Assembly: GCF_015207255.1 (NCBI RefSeq)
Contig: NZ_JADEXG010000001.1
Coordinates: forward strand, 143,979 to 207,978
Direction of reading: 5' to 3'
DNA: 64,000 nucleotides
Source of the DNA: Vasconcelosia minhoensis LEGE 07310
Lineage (GTDB): Bacteria; Cyanobacteriota; Cyanobacteriia; Phormidesmidales; Phormidesmidaceae
This document shows positions 6,748 through 60,999 of the stretch, piece after piece. The notes beneath the pieces were generated by a model. That model did not search any database, was not told where the DNA came from, and worked only from the letters and a program-made list of their open reading frames with translations. The translations under genes and the position numbers were made by a program. Positions within the stretch are counted from its first letter, which is position 1. The number at the start of each line of letters is the position of its first letter.

Positions 6748-7119
6748 CTACGGTGCAGGCGGAATTCGAGCAATCCGGCGAGGACGAAGTTGGGCTGGCA
6801 GACGATAGGCAGGCACCATGCCGTCTTCGCTGTCGAGGTAGAGTTCGCTGGCGGTGAGCAAGTCGGCGGCACAGGTTGCAGGGTCTAAATCGCCGAAGAG
6901 GAAAGTGGGTTTGTGGGTGCCGACGAAGGCGATCGCGCATGGCCTCTCACAAATACACAGACAGGTCGTTGTCTCAATCGTCAGTTCATCCTTGCGCGGC
7001 CACCGCTCGTGCAGTTCCCTGAGCTGATGAAGCAAGCGGACGCCGTCCGTTTCTTGATTGGCATCCGCCTCAGAATGAGTACCGCAGGCTTCGCAGACGA
7101 CTAGAACATGCTTTGCCAT
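6748..7119 (-). CDS. DUF1636 metal-binding protein
   Basis: About 123 residues from the ATG at 7119, which has a GAGGAG ribosome site about 9 bp upstream; a longer frame from 7161 would overlap the previous gene. It carries the DUF1636 cysteine pattern: CEACGTHS near the N-terminus and CLCICERPC in the middle, reminiscent of thioredoxin-like [2Fe-2S] ferredoxins. The start is only 4 bp past the stop of the binding-protein gene at 7124, so it is the last gene of the receptor - binding protein - DUF1636 operon. Position suggests a role in handling metal or reducing ferric ligand, but biochemical function is not established. Confidence 0.8.
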   Translation of the reverse strand: MAKHVLVVCEACGTHSEADANQETDGVRLLHQLRELHERWPRKDELTIETTTCLCICERPCAIAFVGTHKPTFLFGDLDPATCAADLLTASELYLDSEDGMVPAYRLPAQLRPRRIARIPPAP

Positions 7120-7123
7120 GAAA

Positions 7124-8128
7124 TCAATTCTCCTCGAGCAAATATTTGAACAGGTCATCAATGACTAGATTGGCCGCAATTGGTCCATCGCCAATCCAAT
7201 ATTCACCGGGGACTTCGTACACTCGGTCTTGCTGTACCACCGATAGCGTTGACCACAGTGGATCTGCTTTGAGCGCTTCTTTTTCAGACTGTGCATTTTG
7301 GGCAATTTCATCGCGATGTCCAAAAGTCCAGAGAAAAAGGGCATCGCCATCCACATCCGGTATATTTTCTCGACTAATTGTGTATTGAATTTGATTGTCA
7401 AAGAGGTTTTTTGCTTCTGAGGCCGTGAAATCTTGAGATGCCGGACGAGATAAGCCTGCATCAGCGATGACTGTGCCAGGAAATGAGTCTTTGAGATAAA
7501 GATTGATCTGAGTTGGATATACCCGCACAATTGAAATCTCGGTCTCGGCGGCGCGAGTTCCCATGTGCTGCTGAAATTCTTGGGTGCGATCGTAATAATG
7601 CTCCATCACCTGCTCAGCTTTCTCCGTTAACCTGAGTGCTGCCGCGTACTGCATAAACACATCTTTCCACTGACCGCTATAGTCATATGGAATGACGACA
7701 GTGGGAGCGATATTGGACAAAAGCTTATAGTCCACGTTGGCATAGCTCCCGATAACAATGAGGTCTGGCTTGAGCTCTACAATCCGTTCGAGGTTGGGCG
7801 CATCGTATCCACCAACATTCTCAATGTCGTCAATCTCTCCTCGTAGGTAAAAATTAGCTTGAGCCGCACTATCACTGGCAATCGGTTTGACTCCCAAGCT
7901 CAATGCGTAATCTAGCCCAGCTAAATCTACAATTCTCTGAGGATTGTCAGGTACACAGGTTTTGCCCGCCGCATGGCTAACCATGTGACACGCCCCAGCC
8001 GCTTCTCCGCCTGCAATCTCTGGGGGAGTTGACTCTAATGAACGTCCCCCACAGGCGACGGATACAACCAAAGCAGTAATTGCAGCGATCGCCACTAGCC
8101 ATCTACGATACCTTTGCCTCATCTGCAA
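7124..8128 (-). CDS. FecB-like ferric-siderophore-binding lipoprotein (module B)
   Basis: 334-residue periplasmic binding protein. The leader ends in lipobox SVAC with Cys26 and is followed by HAAGKTCVPDNPQRIV, LKPDLIVIGS and a C-terminal GDGPIAANLVIDDLFKYLLEEN. It begins 35 bp after the receptor at 8164-10680 and ends 4 bp before a DUF1636 gene, so the three genes form one transcription unit. It is the closest sibling of the binding protein at 789-1805. No permease or ATPase gene follows, so it must use a transporter encoded elsewhere. Confidence 0.9.
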   Translation of the reverse strand: MQMRQRYRRWLVAIAAITALVVSVACGGRSLESTPPEIAGGEAAGACHMVSHAAGKTCVPDNPQRIVDLAGLDYALSLGVKPIASDSAAQANFYLRGEIDDIENVGGYDAPNLERIVELKPDLIVIGSYANVDYKLLSNIAPTVVIPYDYSGQWKDVFMQYAAALRLTEKAEQVMEHYYDRTQEFQQHMGTRAAETEISIVRVYPTQINLYLKDSFPGTVIADAGLSRPASQDFTASEAKNLFDNQIQYTISRENIPDVDGDALFLWTFGHRDEIAQNAQSEKEALKADPLWSTLSVVQQDRVYEVPGEYWIGDGPIAANLVIDDLFKYLLEEN

Positions 8129-8163
8129 CTCACCTTCTATGCTCCCATTTTAAATCGTGACTT

Positions 8164-10680
8164 CTAAAACTCAACAGACACCCTCCCGATAATTGTTAGG
8201 GGTGCTCCGGGCTCAATGGCCACCCGGCCAAAGTTGTTGGATTTGAAATAGCGTTCATCAAACAGATTTTGCACATTGATGGATGCCCGCCAATTATCAC
8301 GGTTGTAAAACACGGCGGCATCGGTGCGCCAATAGCCCGGCAAATCGAAGCTGTCGTCGAAGTTTCCGGCCCGCTCGCCAACATGAAATACCCCAGCCCC
8401 AAAGCCCAACCCCTGCAGGTCGCCCGCCTGAATTTCATAGGTGGACCAAAGGCTGAAGGTATTTTCCGGGACATTTTGCACCCGGCTCCCAGGTTCCAAA
8501 CCAAAAAATTCCTCGGTGAATTCAGCATCGATATAGCCGTAGGAGGCGATCACATTCCAACCGGGCAAAATTTCACCGGCCACATCTAGTTCAATGCCTC
8601 GGCTGCGCTGCTCGGCAATGGGAAGATTAAAGTCAGGATTGTTAGGATCGGTGGTCGCCAGGTTGGTTTTGGTAATGGTATAGGCGGCTAGATTGGCAAT
8701 TAAGTTGCCTTCCAAGAGTTCACCTCGTAGCCCCACCTCATACTGGGTGCCCCGTTCTGGATCTAGGAATGAGCCATCGACGGCGGTACCAAAGTTGGGC
8801 TGAAAAGAGCGAGCATAGTTGGCGTATAGTGAGAAGGACTCAATCGGGCCATAGAGTAAGCCAATGGATGGACTAAAGGCACTGGGAGACTGACTCGAAT
8901 CCTCTCTCAAGTTGTCGTCGCTGCGCTGTTCAACAAAATCTAGTCGTCCCCCCAGCAGCAGCTTTAAGTTATCGGTCAAGTCAATCTGATCCTGGACAAA
9001 AATTCCGAGGTTATCGGTGCGGGAGACGCTATCGCGCACGACGACAGTCAAATCATCCAGATCGGGACGGGGAATTTGGTTATAAACCGGGTCGAAAATA
9101 TTGATATCTGGAGTAAGCCCCGCCGGTAGTCGGCTTTGAGTTCCCCCAAAGGTCAGACGAGACAGGTCAAATCCCAACAGAAGGTTATGCTCAATGGCAC
9201 CCGTAGAAAATTGTCCCTCCACTTCCGTTTGCAAAGCATAGCTCTCGCTGACATCGTCATTGGAGCGAAAATTGCGGGTCAAGATGCCGGTATCTTCATC
9301 CAACGACAGCGGCTCAGCTCGAAAGTCAAGGCTATCGGAAGAGACGATCCGTAAAGCATTGCGAATACTCCAGCGATCGCTCAAGTTATGCTCTAGACGA
9401 TAACCCGCAGAAATTTCTTCCGTTTCCCTAAAATCTTCGGGTTCACCAAAAAAGCGACTGATAGGCGTATCCACAATGTCTCGCCCAGTGGCAATAAATC
9501 CCCGATCAAAGGGGCGTTCATCGTCGAGATAGCTGAAATCTAGAGCTAGACGAGTGTCTTCGCTAATATCCCAGGCAAGCACTGGAGCGGCAAAAAAGCG
9601 ATTGACATCCTGATCAAAATCTCGAAAGCCATCCGAGTGCTCGTAGGCCAAATTAAGTCGATAGCGCAAGTCGGTCGATTCAGTGAGCGGCCCAGACAAA
9701 TCGATCGTAGGGCGAACAAATCCATAGCTGCCCGCCTGGACATCAAACTCGTAGTTAGAGAAGGGTAAGGGCTGCTCGGTCACCAAGTTGATGATGCCTC
9801 CCGGCTCGATATTGCCGTATAGAACCGAGGCTGGCCCCTTAAGCACCTCAAAGCGCTCAACGTTGGAGGTTTCCAGGATGCCATTGGACGGATCGCGAAA
9901 GCCATCTCGAAAGAATTCAGAAACGGAGAACCCGCGAATATTCAGCTGATCGACGGTACCCGCAAAGCCGCCGTCCTGTACGACACTGCTGACGTTGCGC
10001 GTAGCATCGTCGATGCGGTTGCCCGCCTGATCCTCAAATACCTGCTGGGGCACCACCTGAATCGAGCGCGGAATCTCGAGTAGCGGCGTTTCGGTGCGAG
10101 TGGCTGTAGTTGCCTCGTTTACAACATAGTCATCTTCCTGCTCGCCTGTAACCGCAATTTGCAGCGCCTCTTCGGCAGCGGCATCCGCCATAGCATCGCC
10201 TGGCACGACCCCCAGCACTAAGCCAGTGCCCTCGGTATTGACCTCAGCCGCTGGCGGCGCGTCAGTCCCGGTAATCGAAACCTGCACCCGGCTACCGTCG
10301 AGATTGGTCAAAGAGACAAAGGCGATTCCCTCGGCAGGGTTAGCGGCCTCGAAGGTCTCACCCTCAGGCAGTGCCAGCACCGCATTGGGAATTTCGAGAA
10401 TGAGCGCGTTACCAACCGTAGAAATGTCGGGTTCGGCCAGCGAAGCCGCGGCCTCTAGCGTCAGTTGCAGACCTGTTTCTTCAGGGGCTAACCGCACGCT
10501 GGTAATCTCTACGGGGGTAATCTGTACCGGCGCTTGGGCCAGATTCAGATCGCTGGCTTGAACACTCGCTTGAGCTGGGTCAATTTCTGGCAGGGCCACA
10601 GACTGGGCTCGGACTTCAGGGGCCGAAGCGATTGAGAGCAGTCCAACCAGCAGCACCACGCTTTGCAATTTATCAGTCAT
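8164..10680 (-). CDS. AMIN-domain TonB-dependent receptor, FhuA/FoxA class (module B)
   Basis: About 838 residues from the ATG at 10680, which gives signal peptide MTDKLQSVVLLVGLLSIAS ending near VRAQS. A GTG at 10740 would extend it but lies inside the promoter palindrome, so it is rejected. An AMIN domain precedes a plug of the ferrichrome-type receptor family: RSIQVVPQQVFEDQ, LNIRGFSVSEFFRDGFRDP, ERFEVLKGPASVLYGNIEPG and GGIINLVTEQP. The barrel ends with VSVEF. It differs from the other five receptors, which are of the CirA/FepA/IutA type, so it probably takes a different siderophore. It heads an operon with the binding protein and DUF1636 gene. Confidence 0.92.
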   Translation of the reverse strand: MTDKLQSVVLLVGLLSIASAPEVRAQSVALPEIDPAQASVQASDLNLAQAPVQITPVEITSVRLAPEETGLQLTLEAAASLAEPDISTVGNALILEIPNAVLALPEGETFEAANPAEGIAFVSLTNLDGSRVQVSITGTDAPPAAEVNTEGTGLVLGVVPGDAMADAAAEEALQIAVTGEQEDDYVVNEATTATRTETPLLEIPRSIQVVPQQVFEDQAGNRIDDATRNVSSVVQDGGFAGTVDQLNIRGFSVSEFFRDGFRDPSNGILETSNVERFEVLKGPASVLYGNIEPGGIINLVTEQPLPFSNYEFDVQAGSYGFVRPTIDLSGPLTESTDLRYRLNLAYEHSDGFRDFDQDVNRFFAAPVLAWDISEDTRLALDFSYLDDERPFDRGFIATGRDIVDTPISRFFGEPEDFRETEEISAGYRLEHNLSDRWSIRNALRIVSSDSLDFRAEPLSLDEDTGILTRNFRSNDDVSESYALQTEVEGQFSTGAIEHNLLLGFDLSRLTFGGTQSRLPAGLTPDINIFDPVYNQIPRPDLDDLTVVVRDSVSRTDNLGIFVQDQIDLTDNLKLLLGGRLDFVEQRSDDNLREDSSQSPSAFSPSIGLLYGPIESFSLYANYARSFQPNFGTAVDGSFLDPERGTQYEVGLRGELLEGNLIANLAAYTITKTNLATTDPNNPDFNLPIAEQRSRGIELDVAGEILPGWNVIASYGYIDAEFTEEFFGLEPGSRVQNVPENTFSLWSTYEIQAGDLQGLGFGAGVFHVGERAGNFDDSFDLPGYWRTDAAVFYNRDNWRASINVQNLFDERYFKSNNFGRVAIEPGAPLTIIGRVSVEF

Positions 10681-52036: not shown

Positions 52037-53381
52037 CAGGGTAAGCGCAAGAAAATTCAGGTACCAGAAGTGTTAATGGGCAAAGCTTTTGCAGCTTCTA
52101 AGACTTTGAGCATATAGGCGGGGCTCATACTTGCTCGACGGGCTTTTTGGCGCGTACTTCGCTTATAAGTAACTTCTTGATTCAGCAGATTGAGACTCCA
52201 GCGCCTCAACAGCGACATATTCTCAGGCGCATGGCCCGTACGAATGCGGCTGGCATCTTCGCCAAAGGTGACATCAAGTACCCAGTGCAGCTGATTCTCA
52301 ATCGACCAGTGCTGCCGGATGGCCCGGCCCACCTGAGCGGCCTGAGGCGGCAGAGACGTCAGGTAAAACATCGTCTCTCGGGTAGTCTTATTCCACAGCT
52401 GACGCGTCCGCGTGACCTTGACTATCGATTGCAGGCCAGCCCACTGTGACTGCTTGTACAAGCGTCCCATCTGCTCTATCCCAACCGCCCAGACTTGCCG
52501 CTTCTCGGTGCGGTGATGGCCTGACTCAACGCTGGCGTCAAAGCTGTGCTCGATGCCTTCAAAGCCGCTGGCATCAGCCGCTGCAAACCACTGCTCAACT
52601 TGCCCAAACAGGGTCGGATGATTGGCCTTGAGCGCTAGCACATAGTCTGCCCCCTGGGCCTGAATCTGACGAGAAATCTCATGCTGAGTCCCCATCGCAT
52701 CAATCGTGATGATGCATCCAGCGATGTCAAGTAGCTCTAGCAACGCCGGGATAGCCGTGATCTCGTTGCTCTTGCTATCGACCTTGACTTGGCCTAGAAA
52801 CAACCGATGCTCACTCGCCCAGGCACTGACCACCTGCAAAGCACTCTGCTCAGCGTTGCGGTCATACGACCCGTTGAGGGCTTTGCCATCGATGGGCACC
52901 ACTTGCGCACCGAGTTCAGTTACCAAAGTGCTCAACCAGCCCCTAAAGCTAAGCTCCATCGCCTTGGGCGAGATTCGCTCAAACAGCCGTCGATAGGTGT
53001 CAGCGCGGGGAATGCCGAAGGGCAATGGCAAGAAACTTGTCAACCACTGCTGGTGACTTTCGCCATAGACTTCAATGTCGTCCCAGCCCTGCGCCCCGCC
53101 AATGGTCGCCAATAGCCCAATCATCACGATACTGATGAACGGATGCAGCACTCCTTGCTTTCCGCGCGGGTCTTCTAGGTCATCGAAGTGGGTCATCAAC
53201 GCTTGCTCTACCTGCTCGCAATCCGTTGCAGTCTCTAGCGTCGGCGTTGGGCTAGTAGGCGCAAGCAAATTGGCCTCGGCACCGAATCCTTTTGCCATGG
53301 TAGTCCCTGGTAGAGTATGAATTTCACTAGCTATGAATTTCACTAGCATAGTATGGCAAACTTTTTCTTGCGCTTGCCCTG
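52037..53381 (-). mobile_element. Complete ISAs1-family insertion sequence, 1345 bp
   Basis: Left end CAGGGTAAGCGCAAGAAAA (52037-52055) and right end TTTTTCTTGCGCTTGCCCTG (53362-53381) are near-perfect inverted repeats (one mismatch over 19), enclosing one transposase gene and flanked by 10-bp duplications. The intact duplication indicates a fairly recent insertion. Confidence 0.9.
52057..53298 (-). CDS. ISAs1-family transposase
   Basis: About 413 residues from ATG at 53298, which has CAGGGA five bases upstream; ATG at 53349 is the longer alternative. Motifs: LEDPRGKQGVLHPFISIVMI, VVPIDGKALNGSYDR (first Asp), CIITIDAMGTQHEISRQI (second Asp) and QHWSIENQLHWVLDVTFGED (Glu region), typical of the ISAs1/H-repeat DDE group. 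It is full length and likely active. Confidence 0.93.
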   Translation of the reverse strand: MAKGFGAEANLLAPTSPTPTLETATDCEQVEQALMTHFDDLEDPRGKQGVLHPFISIVMIGLLATIGGAQGWDDIEVYGESHQQWLTSFLPLPFGIPRADTYRRLFERISPKAMELSFRGWLSTLVTELGAQVVPIDGKALNGSYDRNAEQSALQVVSAWASEHRLFLGQVKVDSKSNEITAIPALLELLDIAGCIITIDAMGTQHEISRQIQAQGADYVLALKANHPTLFGQVEQWFAAADASGFEGIEHSFDASVESGHHRTEKRQVWAVGIEQMGRLYKQSQWAGLQSIVKVTRTRQLWNKTTRETMFYLTSLPPQAAQVGRAIRQHWSIENQLHWVLDVTFGEDASRIRTGHAPENMSLLRRWSLNLLNQEVTYKRSTRQKARRASMSPAYMLKVLEAAKALPINTSGT

Positions 53382-54114: not shown

Positions 54115-54160
54115 CTCAGAACCCCCTAGAATTGGGGGTCAGGGGGGCGTACTTGAGCAG
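54115..54160. repeat. GC-rich palindromic repeat (dispersed family)
   Basis: CCCCCTAGAATTGGGGG and GGGGGGC forms, related to the copies at 17661-17690 and 58001-58078. The remaining 54161-54829 is AT-rich upstream DNA of the GTPase gene in which I find no gene. Confidence 0.6.
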
Positions 54161-54829
54161 GGTCATTTCATTCTAGATATGGCTAGATCTGGGTAACGGG
54201 TTCTCCGGCTTTCAGCTATTGGAAGCCTACAACCTTAGAAGCCTGAAGCAACGTATCCTCGTCAATACGCCAAAGTCGTAATTTAGAATAAAACAGCCCT
54301 GCGTACTTGAGTATCTATTTTCATTAAATATCATTCCAAATTAGATAGTTTCAGCTAATCCAAACAACCAACCAATAAAGGCACTTCACAACTCCTTCAT
54401 AAAATTCGTCATCAATCTCTGACTTAACTTTTAAAGTCAGCTAGCTCACTCATCGTCACTGCTTTAACTCAGAACATGACGGCGAAATCTGCGATCGCGC
54501 TATACCACTCCCTAGCGGCCTTCTGTAGGCCAATCGACGGCTGAAGGAATAAGCTTGTCTCTGGCCTAGCCAAACCTGCTCATTTCAGCCATTTCTAACC
54601 CCTCCGAATCTTTGTAAGGCCACACCATACTATTAGCAGGTTAATAAGAAATTAAATCTAAAAATACTGTTAACTTCGCTAAAAATCAACAGCTTTGTCC
54701 TAAAATTATCAGATTATAATGCCTCTATGGCCTGCTTTGGTTAAGTAATATTACAGTTCCGATTTTGTCTAATCCACATTACATGAACGTTCGTATAACC
54801 TGACTTATAACTTAATAGAGGACTTGAAA

Positions 54830-56962
54830 GTGAAAGATTTAACCCAAACCGTCAATCAGCAGCCTGCTACAGACGTTTTAGAGAACCAAGAGCCAATTGA
54901 CTCAGAAATTACAGAAAGCTCAGCTGCGCTTGAGCATAATCTTCCGTTTGCGCCCACCTTTATTGACTATAAACGCGTTTTAATCGCGTTGGTCAGCGAC
55001 CTTAAACGGTTAAGAAATTTTTCTAAAAAGCTCAGTCTCGATAAGTCAATCGAGCTGATCGACGACGTTTTAAGACGGCTTGAAGCCGACTCTTTTTCAA
55101 TCGCGGTAGTAGGAGAGTTTAAGCGCGGTAAAAGCACCTTTATCAACGCGTTGCTAGGTCAAGATATTCTGCCCTCCGATATTCTGCCCTGTTCCGCCAC
55201 CTTGAATCGGGTGACCTATGGTCTGAAGCCCTTAGTAAAAGTTAATTTCAAAGATGGCCGAGAGGATGAGGTGCAGATCGACCAGCTAGCGAATTACGTT
55301 ACCAAGCTGACGCCAGAATCTGAGTCCACCGCCGCCGATGTGAAAGAGGCGACCGTCTACTACCCGGTTCACTACTGTCAAAACAATGTCGACATCATCG
55401 ATACACCAGGTCTAAACGACGACCAGAGCATGACGGACGTCACCCTCTCCGTTTTGCCTCAGGTCGATGCGGCTATCCTCGTGATTTTGGCTCAGTCCCC
55501 CCTTTCCGAATATGAACGAGATTTTCTAGAAAATAAGCTGCTAACCAGTGACCTCGGTCGGATTATCTTCGTCGTCACCGCAATTGACCGCTCCAATACA
55601 CCGGAGGATGGCGAAAAGATTGTCAGGCACGTCGAGGAGCGGATCAAGGAATACGTCCTCAAGCGAGCTCAGGAGCAGTTTGGTGAAGACTCCGAAGAGT
55701 TTAAGCTCTATATCAAAAAGATTGGCAAACCGAGGGTATTTGGCCTATCCGCCTACCAGGCTCTGACAGCTAAACAAACCAACGATATCGCCCTGCTCGC
55801 TCAAAGCCGCTTTGCTGAGTTTGAAACCGCTTTAGAGCAGTTTCTGACGCAAGACCGAGGGGCAATCTTTCTGCAGGTACCGGTCAATCGCGCGATCGCG
55901 TCAGCCGCAGAAATTATCAAAACCATCAGCATCCGAGAAAACGCGCTGGAAATGAAGTTGGAAGAATTTAGCAAAGCTTATGAGGCCTCCGTAGCGGATA
56001 TTTCAGAACTGCGCCAGCGGAAACAGCAGGAAATGCACCGAATTGATGCTGCTGCACAGGGTATAAAGCAACGCGTACAGCCGCTCATCAGCCAGCTTGA
56101 ATATGACCTGAAACGAACTGCTGAGCAGACCATTGATGGCATGGTCATTACACCCAAGGACCTAAACAATAAGAAAGCGCTGAGTGAAAAGCTGGCTCGG
56201 ACGATTTCGGATCAGGTTCAGGCTGCAAGTCAAAAATTAGCGGATAAGATTCAGTCTGATATTCAACAAGGTTTAGCGGCGGAAGTCGACCGTCTGCGAG
56301 ATTTCACGACCTCTGTCGATCAGGTCCTTAGTCGGATTGAGATGCAGTTCATTCAGATAGAAGCAGAGACCGCTCGGAAAAGGAGCGCAGCCGGTGAAGG
56401 CGTGACCGCTGCGGTATCTTTAATGACAGGTTTTGGCGGTCTCTGGTCAGGGTACCGCGAAGGGGGTATCAAGGGAGCTGCTATTGGTACAGCTGCCAGT
56501 ATAGGGACATACTTTGGCGCGGGCATGCTGATTGCAGCGCTTGGGTTGCCCTTAACTTGGCCTGCTTTAATTGCTGTTGGCATCACCTCTATTTTTACTG
56601 GAAAGTGGTCAGCCAGGCTCATTTCTGGCAAAGACCGAGTGGACCATTTCAAGACAGACTATAAAGCCAAAGTGCTAGAAGAGATTGAAAAGCAGCTTAG
56701 AGATAATCGAGTTGAGCACAAAGTTGATGATTACATTTCTACTTCTTTCACAGCGCTCAAACAAAAACTGCACCAGGAGGTCGAGTCGTTGTTAGACAAT
56801 ACCCAACAGACGCTGGCTGAGCTGCGCGGCAAGCGAGAGCGAGACGAAACGCTGACCGAAGCTGAGCGCAAAGAGCTCGGTGAAATGCATACAGAAACTC
56901 AAAAGATCTTGGGCAACGCCCAGCGGCTATCCAATCAGCTGGTTGAAATTATGAGTGTGTAA
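54830..56962 (+). CDS. Dynamin-like GTPase with membrane hairpin
   Basis: About 710 residues from GTG at 54830, with AGAGGA eight bases upstream; TTG at 54824 is too close to it. Numbering from 54824: P-loop GEFKRGKST (97-105), switch CSAT (123-126), DTPGL (193-197) and TAID (252-255). A long helical stalk follows, then a glycine-rich hydrophobic stretch (about 525-595: LIAALGLPLTWPALIAVGIT) that can enter membranes, and a coiled C-terminus. Bacterial dynamins remodel or repair membranes. Its stop overlaps the start of an M48 protease gene by one base, so the two are co-translated. A paralogue lacking the hydrophobic part lies at 61116. Confidence 0.9.
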   Translation: MKDLTQTVNQQPATDVLENQEPIDSEITESSAALEHNLPFAPTFIDYKRVLIALVSDLKRLRNFSKKLSLDKSIELIDDVLRRLEADSFSIAVVGEFKRGKSTFINALLGQDILPSDILPCSATLNRVTYGLKPLVKVNFKDGREDEVQIDQLANYVTKLTPESESTAADVKEATVYYPVHYCQNNVDIIDTPGLNDDQSMTDVTLSVLPQVDAAILVILAQSPLSEYERDFLENKLLTSDLGRIIFVVTAIDRSNTPEDGEKIVRHVEERIKEYVLKRAQEQFGEDSEEFKLYIKKIGKPRVFGLSAYQALTAKQTNDIALLAQSRFAEFETALEQFLTQDRGAIFLQVPVNRAIASAAEIIKTISIRENALEMKLEEFSKAYEASVADISELRQRKQQEMHRIDAAAQGIKQRVQPLISQLEYDLKRTAEQTIDGMVITPKDLNNKKALSEKLARTISDQVQAASQKLADKIQSDIQQGLAAEVDRLRDFTTSVDQVLSRIEMQFIQIEAETARKRSAAGEGVTAAVSLMTGFGGLWSGYREGGIKGAAIGTAASIGTYFGAGMLIAALGLPLTWPALIAVGITSIFTGKWSARLISGKDRVDHFKTDYKAKVLEEIEKQLRDNRVEHKVDDYISTSFTALKQKLHQEVESLLDNTQQTLAELRGKRERDETLTEAERKELGEMHTETQKILGNAQRLSNQLVEIMSV

Positions 56963-57939
56963 TGATGTCTGTAACTAATCCTACAACCGCGATCGACTTA
57001 AGCTTTGCCAACTATGTAGACTCGCGCGATCGCGAGCTATCGGCTCACCTGGTTGGCGGCATTCCCGACTATGCGTTTTCGCTGGATCAGCAGCTGCGCC
57101 AACAGTTGGCCGCAATGGGGCCGGTCAGAGCGATCTCGCAGTCGCTGGTAGCAATGATCGTACCTCTCCAGAAGCAGCTTCAGCAGATGAATGGGGTAGC
57201 AGTGGGGCCGCAGCAGTATCCTGAAATCTATGCGCTGGGTGAAGACTGCGCCCGTCAGCTGGGCATCGGCGTTCCTCAAATTTTTGTCTACTACTCGCCG
57301 ATGCTGAATGCCTACACGATCGCCACTGATGATGTGGCTCCAATGGTCGTCCTCTCCAGCGCGCTGGTCGAGGCGTTTGAACCGCTGGAGCTGAAGTTCG
57401 TGATCGGTCACGAATGCGGCCATATTCACAATCTCCATTCGGTTTACAACACCGCCGTGGAGCTGATGACTAATTCTCTGGCAACCGTTGCTTTCCAGGC
57501 GGTCCCAGCCTTGGGAGCGCTCAGATTCGTACTTCAGGGCGGGCTGTTGCTATTTATGATGCGCTGGAGCCGATGTGCAGAAGTAACCTGCGATCGCGCG
57601 GGCCTGATCTGCTGCGGCGACCTGACTAAGGCTCAAGTGGCCTTGGCTAAGTTGGCAACGGGAGGCGTAGAGCCTCTGAAAGGGATTAATATTCAGGAGT
57701 ACCTGAAGCAAATCCGTCAGGTGCAGTCTACGCCCGTTCGCCTGCTTGAGCTCACCCGGAGTCATCCGCTCACGCATAAGCGGATTGAAGCCATCCGTCT
57801 GTTTGCCGACTGCGACGTACTGCCTTCATGGCGACCCGAGATGCGCTCTACGAGTCCGGTTCGAAGCAAAGCAGAAATTGACGAGCAGTGCGAGCAGTTT
57901 ATTCGCGTGATGGCTCAGGGCTATCAGGCTTCCGCTTGA
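56962..57939 (+). CDS. M48-family zinc metalloprotease
   Basis: 325 residues; an ATG at 56965 is an alternative start. Zinc site HECGH (H150, E151, H154) and third ligand E207 in CAEVTCDRAG, followed by RSHPLTHKRIEAI. A hydrophobic segment (about 172-200) separates the two zinc motifs. M48 enzymes (HtpX, Ste24, OMA1) clip membrane proteins or misfolded proteins. It overlaps the dynamin-like gene by one base and is followed by a second dynamin-like gene, so a substrate or partner among these GTPases is plausible but unproven. Confidence 0.92.
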   Translation: MMSVTNPTTAIDLSFANYVDSRDRELSAHLVGGIPDYAFSLDQQLRQQLAAMGPVRAISQSLVAMIVPLQKQLQQMNGVAVGPQQYPEIYALGEDCARQLGIGVPQIFVYYSPMLNAYTIATDDVAPMVVLSSALVEAFEPLELKFVIGHECGHIHNLHSVYNTAVELMTNSLATVAFQAVPALGALRFVLQGGLLLFMMRWSRCAEVTCDRAGLICCGDLTKAQVALAKLATGGVEPLKGINIQEYLKQIRQVQSTPVRLLELTRSHPLTHKRIEAIRLFADCDVLPSWRPEMRSTSPVRSKAEIDEQCEQFIRVMAQGYQASA

Positions 57940-58000
57940 TTTTCAATAGATAAGGCCAATTTCTTTTGAGAGAGATTCAATATTGTTAAACCTTCTTATG

Positions 58001-58078
58001 CGCCCCCCTGCCCCCCAACTTTGGGAGGTTCTGAGCTCAAAGCCTCCCAGAATTGGGAGGTTTGGGGGGCGTGCAGAG
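58001..58078. repeat. Long imperfect inverted repeat between protease and second GTPase gene
   Basis: Two GC-rich arms (CGCCCCCCTGCCCCCCAAC and GGGAGGTTTGGGGGGCG) are centred on GAGCTC near 58035, and each arm holds its own smaller palindrome. It can form a cruciform or strong RNA hairpin in the 175-bp gap and so uncouple the second dynamin gene from the first pair. It belongs to the family at 17661 and 54115. Confidence 0.7.
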
Positions 58079-58114
58079 TTGTAAGCTATTTGAACTGCAT
58101 TTACCCGTCGCCCT

Positions 58115-59938: not shown

Positions 59939-60600
59939 CTAGGCGTAATCAAGTATAAAACGGTCTAGGCTGTAACCGCCCTTTACGCTGCGGTCCATCA
60001 TGCCATCGACGATAGCCTCAGCGAGCTCATCTTCATACTCGAACATGCGGCCTGCCAGCTCATGGGTTTTAAGCTGATGCCACTGACCTTCAATCGGATT
60101 GAGCTCAGAGCAGTAAGGCGGCAGGAATAGCACGAACAGCCCTTGAGCTCGCCACCTCAGCCAAGCCTGCTGAACGACTTTGCTCTTATGGACGGGGCAG
60201 TTGTCTTGCACAATAAAGGTCAGCCGCCCAGTTTCGGCAAAGGTCTTGGCCGCTTTGGACGCTAGCCAGCCCATCACCACCAAGTAGCGCTCGGCGTCAA
60301 AGCCGCCCACCGCTAAGGCATACTCGAAGCACTCATCCGGTTCCCATACTCCCAAGATGCTCACTCGCTGGCCCCGGCGCGAGGTTTGCTCAAAGCGCTT
60401 CTGCTGCCCCACCCGACTGTAGCTGTAGCTCTCAGGCGTCCATTGACAGCAGCCGGTCTCATCGAGATGCTTAAGCACAATCTGGCCAGCCGCGGCTAGG
60501 GCTTCTAGCTCAATCAGCTGCGCCGCGGCTAGGGCTTTGACCTCGGCGTTTTGACGCTGGCGATGACTTTGTCGGGTGCGCTTCCAGCGATAGCCTTTTT
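59939..60600 (-). CDS. IS630 transposase, catalytic part (reached by frameshift)
   Basis: In the frame that follows the A9 run at 60596-60604 the minus strand reads [20 protein letters not shown], then [40 protein letters not shown], the Asp block [19 protein letters not shown] and the final acidic residue in [15 protein letters not shown]. This is the DDE catalytic region of IS630 transposases. A GTG at 60478 could start it alone, but the family normally makes a fusion by slippage. Confidence 0.85.
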
Positions 60601-60999
60601 TTTTAGCAGCTTACGAATCCGGTCTGCGCTGAGCTTAACCTGCCGCTCCTGCCATAGCTTAGCCGCGAGCTGCTTACTGTTATAGGGACGCGCTTCTTCG
60701 TTCAGGCATTGCTCTAGATACGCTAGGTCTGACGGGCTCCAGGTCGGCTTTTTGCCTCGCCCTGGCTTTTCCCACAGCCCATAGAGTCCGACCTGTATCC
60801 ACTGCTTAATCGCCGCACGGACCGTATGCTCGTGGCAGTTCATGATCTCGGCGATGGCCGGGGCGCTCCAGCCGTCGCCGTTGAGCAATAGCACGTGAGC
60901 CCGGTCGCGCACTCGGTAGGGCACGCTGCTAGCTTTTCGTAGCTCGCTTAAGGTGGCTGCCTCAGGGGCACTCAGGGTAACTCGCAGGGGGGCTGGCAT
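60529..60999 (-). CDS. IS630 transposase, N-terminal DNA-binding part
   Basis: 156 residues with a helix-turn-helix ([40 protein letters not shown]) and a second one up to [17 protein letters not shown]. The AAAAAAAAAG run (A9, 60596-60604) at LLKKK is the likely slip site to the catalytic frame, so the unslipped product is this short protein. Confidence 0.85.

Follow-up and report, generated by a model that had tools for sequence, protein, structure and literature searches.

What does a zinc metalloprotease do among the genes of membrane dynamins? The cyanobacterium Vasconcelosia minhoensis LEGE 07310 raises this question: in a window of 64,000 nucleotides (nt) of contig NZ_JADEXG010000001.1, by which we mean the whole stretch of DNA analysed, an M48 metalloprotease gene lies between the genes of two dynamin-like GTPases, DLP-A and DLP-B (Table 1). 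In mitochondria the M48 protease OMA1 is linked to the membrane dynamin OPA1, and an initial annotation, which had noticed a dynamin gene and an M48 gene overlapping by one base, proposed an OPA1/OMA1-like pair. Direct reading and Pfam confirm this arrangement: the stop codon of DLP-A, TAA, occupies 56960-56962 and ends on the first base of the M48 ATG at 56962-56964. DLP-B and another dynamin of the window, DLP-C, had gone unnoticed in the annotation. In the reading that we favour, and to which we give about an even chance, DLP-A and DLP-B would form a heteromeric complex that remodels membranes, the M48 protein would be one of its built-in subunits, and M48 with an intact zinc site would cut a partner so that the complex is reset or taken apart.

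The arrangement is conserved well beyond this genome. A scan of genome contigs with the M48 protein gave 107 relatives, from which 80 loci were kept. A dynamin open reading frame (ORF) adjoins the M48 gene in 78 of them, and the remaining two (L060 and L083) reach a contig end right after M48. Forty-one loci (L011-L049, L055 and L079) were of the window's kind, with the usual order (DLP-U)-DLP-A-M48-DLP-B, often accompanied by a zinc-ribbon protein; by record titles and tree placement, they came from Cyanobacteria, Chloroflexi, Bacillota and Pseudomonadota, with one Coriobacteriaceae and one Fibrobacterota. DLP-A was upstream of M48 in 39 of the 41, and for 32 of these 39 the gap was between -70 and 40 nt. 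DLP-B was downstream in 37, and in all but one of these it began no later than 40 nt after the end of M48; overlap lengths are approximate because the starts are those of the longest ORFs. Exceptions for DLP-B were L020, L024 and L047, which end soon after M48, and L041, which has a partial DLP-B only. Of the other 39 loci, nearly all titled as Myxococcota or their kin, 36 had a single dynamin after M48 and L052 had two; L060 and L083 had none within reach. A pairing confined to this strain, which the initial annotation had named as an outcome that would tell against its proposal, is thus ruled out by linkage in several phyla and by a fusion in another M48 lineage. Window-kind loci go beyond a gene pair, usually having two or three dynamins and often a zinc ribbon beside M48. 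Two loci deserve separate mention: in L052 a tetratricopeptide repeat-dynamin protein (7115-10072) adjoins the M48-dynamin pair, and L023 lies on a contig of a metagenome-assembled genome titled Klebsiella pneumoniae, a title that is probably wrong; in the tree the locus forms a long branch beside another proteobacterial assembly of this type.

Proximity to a dynamin is not a general property of M48 genes. Three further M48 genes from the same genome (L002-L004) had no dynamin in stretches of 3.3-3.7 kb, and among 20 DLP-A-type loci (L120-L139, best matches of 42 genomes) M48 stood beside a dynamin in L125 only; these results rule out the idea that M48 genes stand beside dynamins as a matter of course. 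In addition, pairwise distances of the three proteins were correlated over the 21 loci present in all three alignments (M48-A, 0.865; M48-B, 0.925; A-B, 0.888), the largest permuted value being 0.355.

The M48 protein has the HExxH motif, the downstream Glu and the fold of its family (Pfam Peptidase_M48, 1e-23; AlphaFold2 model with a mean predicted local distance difference test (pLDDT) of 87.9). HECGH and Glu207 are both present, leaving the zinc site intact. Of at least 2030 relatives, the active site was intact in all of the 120 most similar, and H268 was kept in 119. A first scan had found HECGH in 81 of 81 relatives, a count biased because HECGH served as the search pattern in that scan; we dropped it as proof of catalysis. 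Compared with known chains, the M48 profile matched HtpX (6.4e-12), Ste24 (1.1e-6) and BepA (0.35 or weaker), with no OMA1 chain among the matches. By profile similarity the protein is therefore nearer to HtpX and Ste24 than to BepA, OMA1 lying outside the comparison. All eight NCBIfam matches were HtpX models, the best at 44.4 bits against an equivalog cut-off of 245 and the other seven also far below theirs.

All three window dynamins have a Dynamin_N GTPase domain (DLP-A, 4.6e-31; DLP-B, 6e-21; DLP-C, 1.6e-30) with P-loop and DTPG motifs. The P-loop is invariant in both the DLP-A-type (36 rows) and the DLP-B-type alignment (29 rows); DTPG is invariant in the former, and its T nearly so in the latter. 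Only DLP-A combines the helical domain (Dynamin-like_hel_bact, PF21808, 2e-8), the overall fold and the hydrophobic paddle of BDLP; PF21808 matched neither DLP-B nor DLP-C, and neither of them has such a hydrophobic stretch. In DLP-A the 19-residue hydropathy mean peaks at 2.02 (residue 567), within a region modelled mostly below pLDDT 60 (whole model, 76.7), and reaches at least 1.6 in 35 of the 36 aligned DLP-A-type rows, the exception being the window's DLP-C; DLP-B does not exceed 1.08. The best Foldseek match of the DLP-A model was BDLP 2j69 (E-value 1.7e-23; template modelling score 0.65), and BDLP, IniA, Cj-DLP and mitofusins ranked first, Mgm1 appearing only at rank 37 of the top 50 matches. 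No hydrophobic anchor was found in the N-terminal 44 residues, the top windows starting at 567, 204, 345 and 520. On its modelled fold DLP-A resembles BDLP1 and the mitofusins, not OPA1, and we rejected an OPA1 identity for it.

These results bear on the idea of a switch of the OMA1/OPA1 type, in which M48 would cut DLP-A directly and so turn remodelling on or off. The one-base overlap, the conserved linkage, the intact active site and the fusion are what such a switch would lead one to expect. The cassette differs, however, in its BDLP/mitofusin-like dynamin, its HtpX/Ste24-like protease and its usually several dynamins, and one clade of the cassette keeps DLP-A and DLP-B without a canonical protease; we judge a switch of this type unlikely.

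That clade was met through L140 (MT836781.1), an UNVERIFIED record from human faeces labelled Bacteriophage sp., which has the order DLP-A - M48-like - DLP-B with changed zinc ligands. A search with its M48-like protein gave 192 clusters, the best 120 of which were examined for zinc-site residues: H150, E151, H154 and E207 were all kept in none, H150 was replaced by C in 118 and E207 by D in 120, residue 154 was R in 60 proteins and remained H in 59, and E151 was kept in all 120. These relatives (P0126-P0245) form a large family, some members being named Ruminococcus or Oscillospiraceae, and the closest 57 (P0126-P0182) were listed with no precomputed Pfam domain. With the altered M48 as query, a first sample of 200 Bacillota genomes gave one match, its centre genome, and 394 genomes of one order gave six, namely the catalytic centre genome and five new ones. 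In these five new neighbourhoods and L140, the order DLP-A - M48-like - DLP-B was present in 6 of 6, position 150 was C or S and position 207 was D, N or C. P-loop and DTPG were present in every complete dynamin of these loci, the L177 copy of DLP-A meeting a contig end. In a tree, 15 altered rows (the six loci and nine of the 120 proteins) formed one clade (100/100) inside the Bacillota branch. Because all six loci keep the protein without a canonical zinc site, cleavage cannot be its sole role in this clade, and because this lineage retains it between the dynamins despite the changed residues, M48 is likely to be a built-in subunit of the dynamin complex. Cutting of a partner would then probably be a second function, separable from the structural role.

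Which part of M48 might contact the dynamins? Positions kept in at least 95% of both the catalytic and the altered sets (120 proteins each) include N6, P7, F15, Y18, R22, H29, Y37, D42, C96, N157, W290 and C310. Positions 15, 18, 22 and 29 were unaligned in four M48s that have no dynamin next to them, and D42 was common to those four. From this pattern, and with few outgroup sequences, we infer that the N-terminal segment is a candidate docking region in M48s of the window's kind. In the favoured reading, the DLP-A/DLP-B complex would be anchored through the predicted hairpin of DLP-A, and M48, docked by its N-terminal ~40 residues, would act on the cytoplasmic side of the membrane, where the zinc-intact form could cut a partner and thereby reset or disassemble the complex. 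That membrane stress or repair would call for this action is a guess drawn from DynA-type dynamins (PMC8581546).

A candidate for that partner is suggested by the genes around the core. DLP-U, a further DLP-A-like dynamin that is usually upstream, was present in 32 of the 41 window-kind loci, and a zinc-ribbon-like ORF with a CxxC motif was found somewhere in the stretch in 31; one or both occurred in 38. The zinc-ribbon-like share of non-cassette ORFs was 12/20 inside the cassette and 20/66 among immediate neighbours, falling to 11/48 at two genes, 5/39 at three and 1/37 at four or more. Zn_Ribbon_1 was matched by 29 of the 112 neighbour proteins scanned (of 169 listed), and in L012 and L013 DLP-U itself carries a C-terminal zinc ribbon (below cut-off in L013). 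None of the six altered loci had DLP-U or a zinc ribbon, although only L174, L175, L176 and L178 have more than 6 kb upstream (38/41 vs 0/6, all six altered loci counted; Fisher 7.8e-6). Because the altered clade is without these genes where this can be checked, the DLP-U/zinc-ribbon part would be the preferred substrate, with DLP-A as the alternative. A more specific proposal, which we regard as possible rather than probable, is that of a distinct bacterial dynamin machine with a DLP-A/M48/DLP-B core, in which an N-terminally docked M48 would cut DLP-U/zinc-ribbon proteins, would serve as a pure scaffold in the Bacillota clade and would be independent of OMA1/OPA1.

M48 and dynamin domains also occur fused, in another M48 lineage. 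In L125 (Cyanobacteria bacterium RYN_339), a 990-residue protein, P0001, has an M48 domain (4.2e-16), and its gene overlaps that of the next dynamin by 4 nt; two dynamins follow. Its relatives P0002 (2.4e-5) and P0003 (1.3e-5) matched dynamin profiles weakly, and P0005 gave clear matches to both kinds of profile, M48 at 2.7e-38 and dynamin at 1.7e-17 and 2.9e-15. Four fusion C-termini compared together by hhalign gave probabilities of 94.9% for DLP-A and 94.4% for DLP-B. By eye, the P-loop of P0001 is degenerate, and that of P0005 is intact with no evident ribbon. In the tree, whose root is uncertain, the M48 domains of the fusions cluster with M48s that have no dynamin next to them and apart from cassette M48s, which suggests a separate origin of the M48-dynamin association. 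Another explanation for the cassette is that M48 is an HtpX-like protease of membrane quality control that only shares its expression with the dynamins, in an operon for membrane stress, with no contact between them. The nearness of the M48 profile to HtpX and Ste24 fits that explanation, but the P0005 fusion and the altered copies kept between DLP-A and DLP-B do not, nor do the mirrored distances, though genes that move together would show these anyway; we give it little credence.

Several observations weigh against the favoured reading or parts of it. Part of the altered clade may have a different metal site: E151 is kept in all 120 proteins, and the Cys-His-Asp set of about half of them might bind metal. 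The coincidence of the changed zinc site with the missing DLP-U/ribbon is not independent evidence because the change of the site is a single evolutionary event, and three catalytic loci (L022, L024 and L041) also have neither DLP-U nor zinc ribbon. The mirrored M48, DLP-A and DLP-B distances would be expected from joint transfer alone. L120 (G087), with two DLP-A-like dynamins and neither M48 nor DLP-B, is a counterexample to strict coupling. The Myxococcota group combines an active-type M48 with one dynamin (a recurrent zinc ribbon was not sought there), and a universal docking segment is contradicted by its 11 rows: N6, P7 and H29, as well as W290 and C310, are each present in 0/11, with F15 in 11/11, R22 in 9/11 and Y18 in 3/11. 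Finally, the C-terminus of P0001 alone matched no dynamin profile, and its double zinc ribbon (0.078) was below cut-off.

The cassette is rare. M48 and DLP-B were each found in 1 of 292 sampled cyanobacterial genomes, the window's own (E-value 1e-60), and a further six cyanobacterial loci were found by the genome-contig scan; the distribution is therefore patchy. Relatives of DLP-A alone occurred in 42 of the 292 genomes (E-value 1e-15). Such patchiness, also seen with the altered query in Bacillota, is consistent with a defence module against phages or other elements, in which the dynamins would seal membranes or break them and the protease would serve as trigger or effector. So are the tree positions of the Coriobacteriaceae and Fibrobacterota rows, which fall within the Bacillota branch, and the matches of LeoA/LeoBC profiles to all three window dynamins (best 2.9e-25; the Leo gene set was not otherwise sought). 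Beside the altered cassette of L140 (5807-8678) are ORFs that we take, from their sequence, to be integrase-like, helix-turn-helix and MazF-like, and an integrating element may carry this cassette as cargo. B. subtilis DynA has been linked with phage resistance in one report (PMC8844932). However, a PADLOC scan of the 112 neighbour proteins matched no family with more than two members, and viral contigs searched with the DLP-B profile, the L140 protein and the A1 profile gave no relatives. DLP-B was found in no plasmid record at 1e-20 and, among phage records, only in that of L140. Nine plasmid records had relatives of M48, and three such neighbourhoods (Thermus, Tsukamurella and Bernardetia) contained no dynamin by profile. 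A defence role is, in our view, distinctly unlikely.

To our knowledge, the regulation of bacterial dynamins is largely open. Each part of the cassette belongs to a known kind, whereas their combination and the altered clade appear to be new, and no dynamin-M48 cassette or operon was found described in the open-licence literature searched. HtpX, Ste24 and BepA share the M48 fold and zinc site, but the cassette M48 has an extra conserved N-terminal segment and the linkage to dynamins. In the B. subtilis pspA-ydjGHI operon, YdjG bears a zinc ribbon. This operon resembles the cassette as a multi-protein membrane surveillance system for which dynamin links are discussed; it encodes SPFH and PspA proteins instead of dynamins and M48, and "zinc ribbon" is absent from the text (PMC8581546). 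Two comparative papers on phage-shock proteins make no use of the word "dynamin". BDLP1 of Nostoc punctiforme (2j68/2j69) shares with DLP-A the GTPase, the helical domain, the overall fold and the side-by-side arrangement of dynamin genes; its neighbour has a DnaJ-like domain, and no M48 partner is mentioned in the portion available (PMC6104087). Campylobacter Cj-DLP1/Cj-DLP2 (5owv/5oxf), two dissimilar dynamins encoded together whose heterotypic assembly has been shown, provide a model for DLP-A with DLP-B; their operon putatively includes an HcpA-like beta-lactamase, and the same portion mentions neither M48 nor zinc ribbon (PMC6104087). In work on E. coli RdcA and DgcE a dynamin-like GTPase appears and HtpX was a candidate for DgcE turnover, an htpX knockout being without effect; the available text draws no link between dynamin and HtpX (PMC6510439). 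An M48 protein inside dynamin operons, together with its natural altered counterpart, offers a direct handle for separating scaffolding from proteolysis, and if our reading is true, coupling of M48 to a dynamin arose in bacteria separately from the OMA1/OPA1 of mitochondria.

Table 1. Features of the dynamin-M48 locus in the window
Feature	Position	Strand	Evidence
DLP-A, BDLP1-like dynamin GTPase, 710 amino acids (aa), GTG start	54830..56962	+	Pfam, AlphaFold2, Foldseek
DLP-A hydrophobic stretch, residues 516-601, predicted membrane hairpin	56375..56632	+	hydropathy; low model confidence
M48 metalloprotease, 325 aa	56962..57939	+	Pfam, AlphaFold2
M48 N-terminal segment, residues 1-42, candidate dynamin-docking region	56962..57087	+	residue conservation
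HECGH zinc-binding and catalytic motif, residues 150-154	57409..57423	+	sequence
M48 third zinc ligand, Glu207	57580..57582	+	sequence
DLP-B, second dynamin GTPase, 603 aa	58115..59926	+	Pfam
DLP-C, third dynamin, 652 aa	61116..63074	-	Pfam; quick tree
Insertion sequence with two ORFs, in the DLP-B/DLP-C interval	59939..60999	-	ORFs and sequence
Zinc-ribbon protein, 196 aa	53513..54103	-	Zn_Ribbon_1, 1.1e-8 (Pfam)

Around the core of the window locus, DLP-C groups with DLP-U in a quick tree (support 0.937) and is separated from the cassette, on the opposite strand and past an insertion sequence that, from its sequence, is presumably IS630-like. With a transposase-like ORF recognized by eye upstream (52057-53349), the cassette is therefore flanked and split by insertion sequences. 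The window's zinc-ribbon protein matched the cassette zinc-ribbon ORFs weakly (best 2.2e-5) and is a possible local counterpart of them. AGAGGA at 54817-54822 lies 7 bases 5' of the DLP-A GTG at 54830, the longest ORF opening earlier, at TTG 54824, and M48 has a second in-frame ATG at 56965. No Rfam match was found near the cassette, and promoter- and terminator-like sites were about as numerous there as in shuffled sequence. G/C-rich palindromic stretches in the M48/DLP-B gap (57990-58080) and upstream of DLP-A (54120-54150) look alike by eye. In other genomes, a conserved histidine-kinase-like membrane protein occurs near the cassette in six loci (L026, L027, L028, L029, L037, L043 upstream), and HATPase_c matched 4 of the 112 neighbour proteins; this protein is a possible regulator of the cassette. 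Farther away in the window (789-41175), six TonB-receptor-like and six iron-siderophore-binding-like ORFs stand in a row with AraC-like regulators, as judged by eye.

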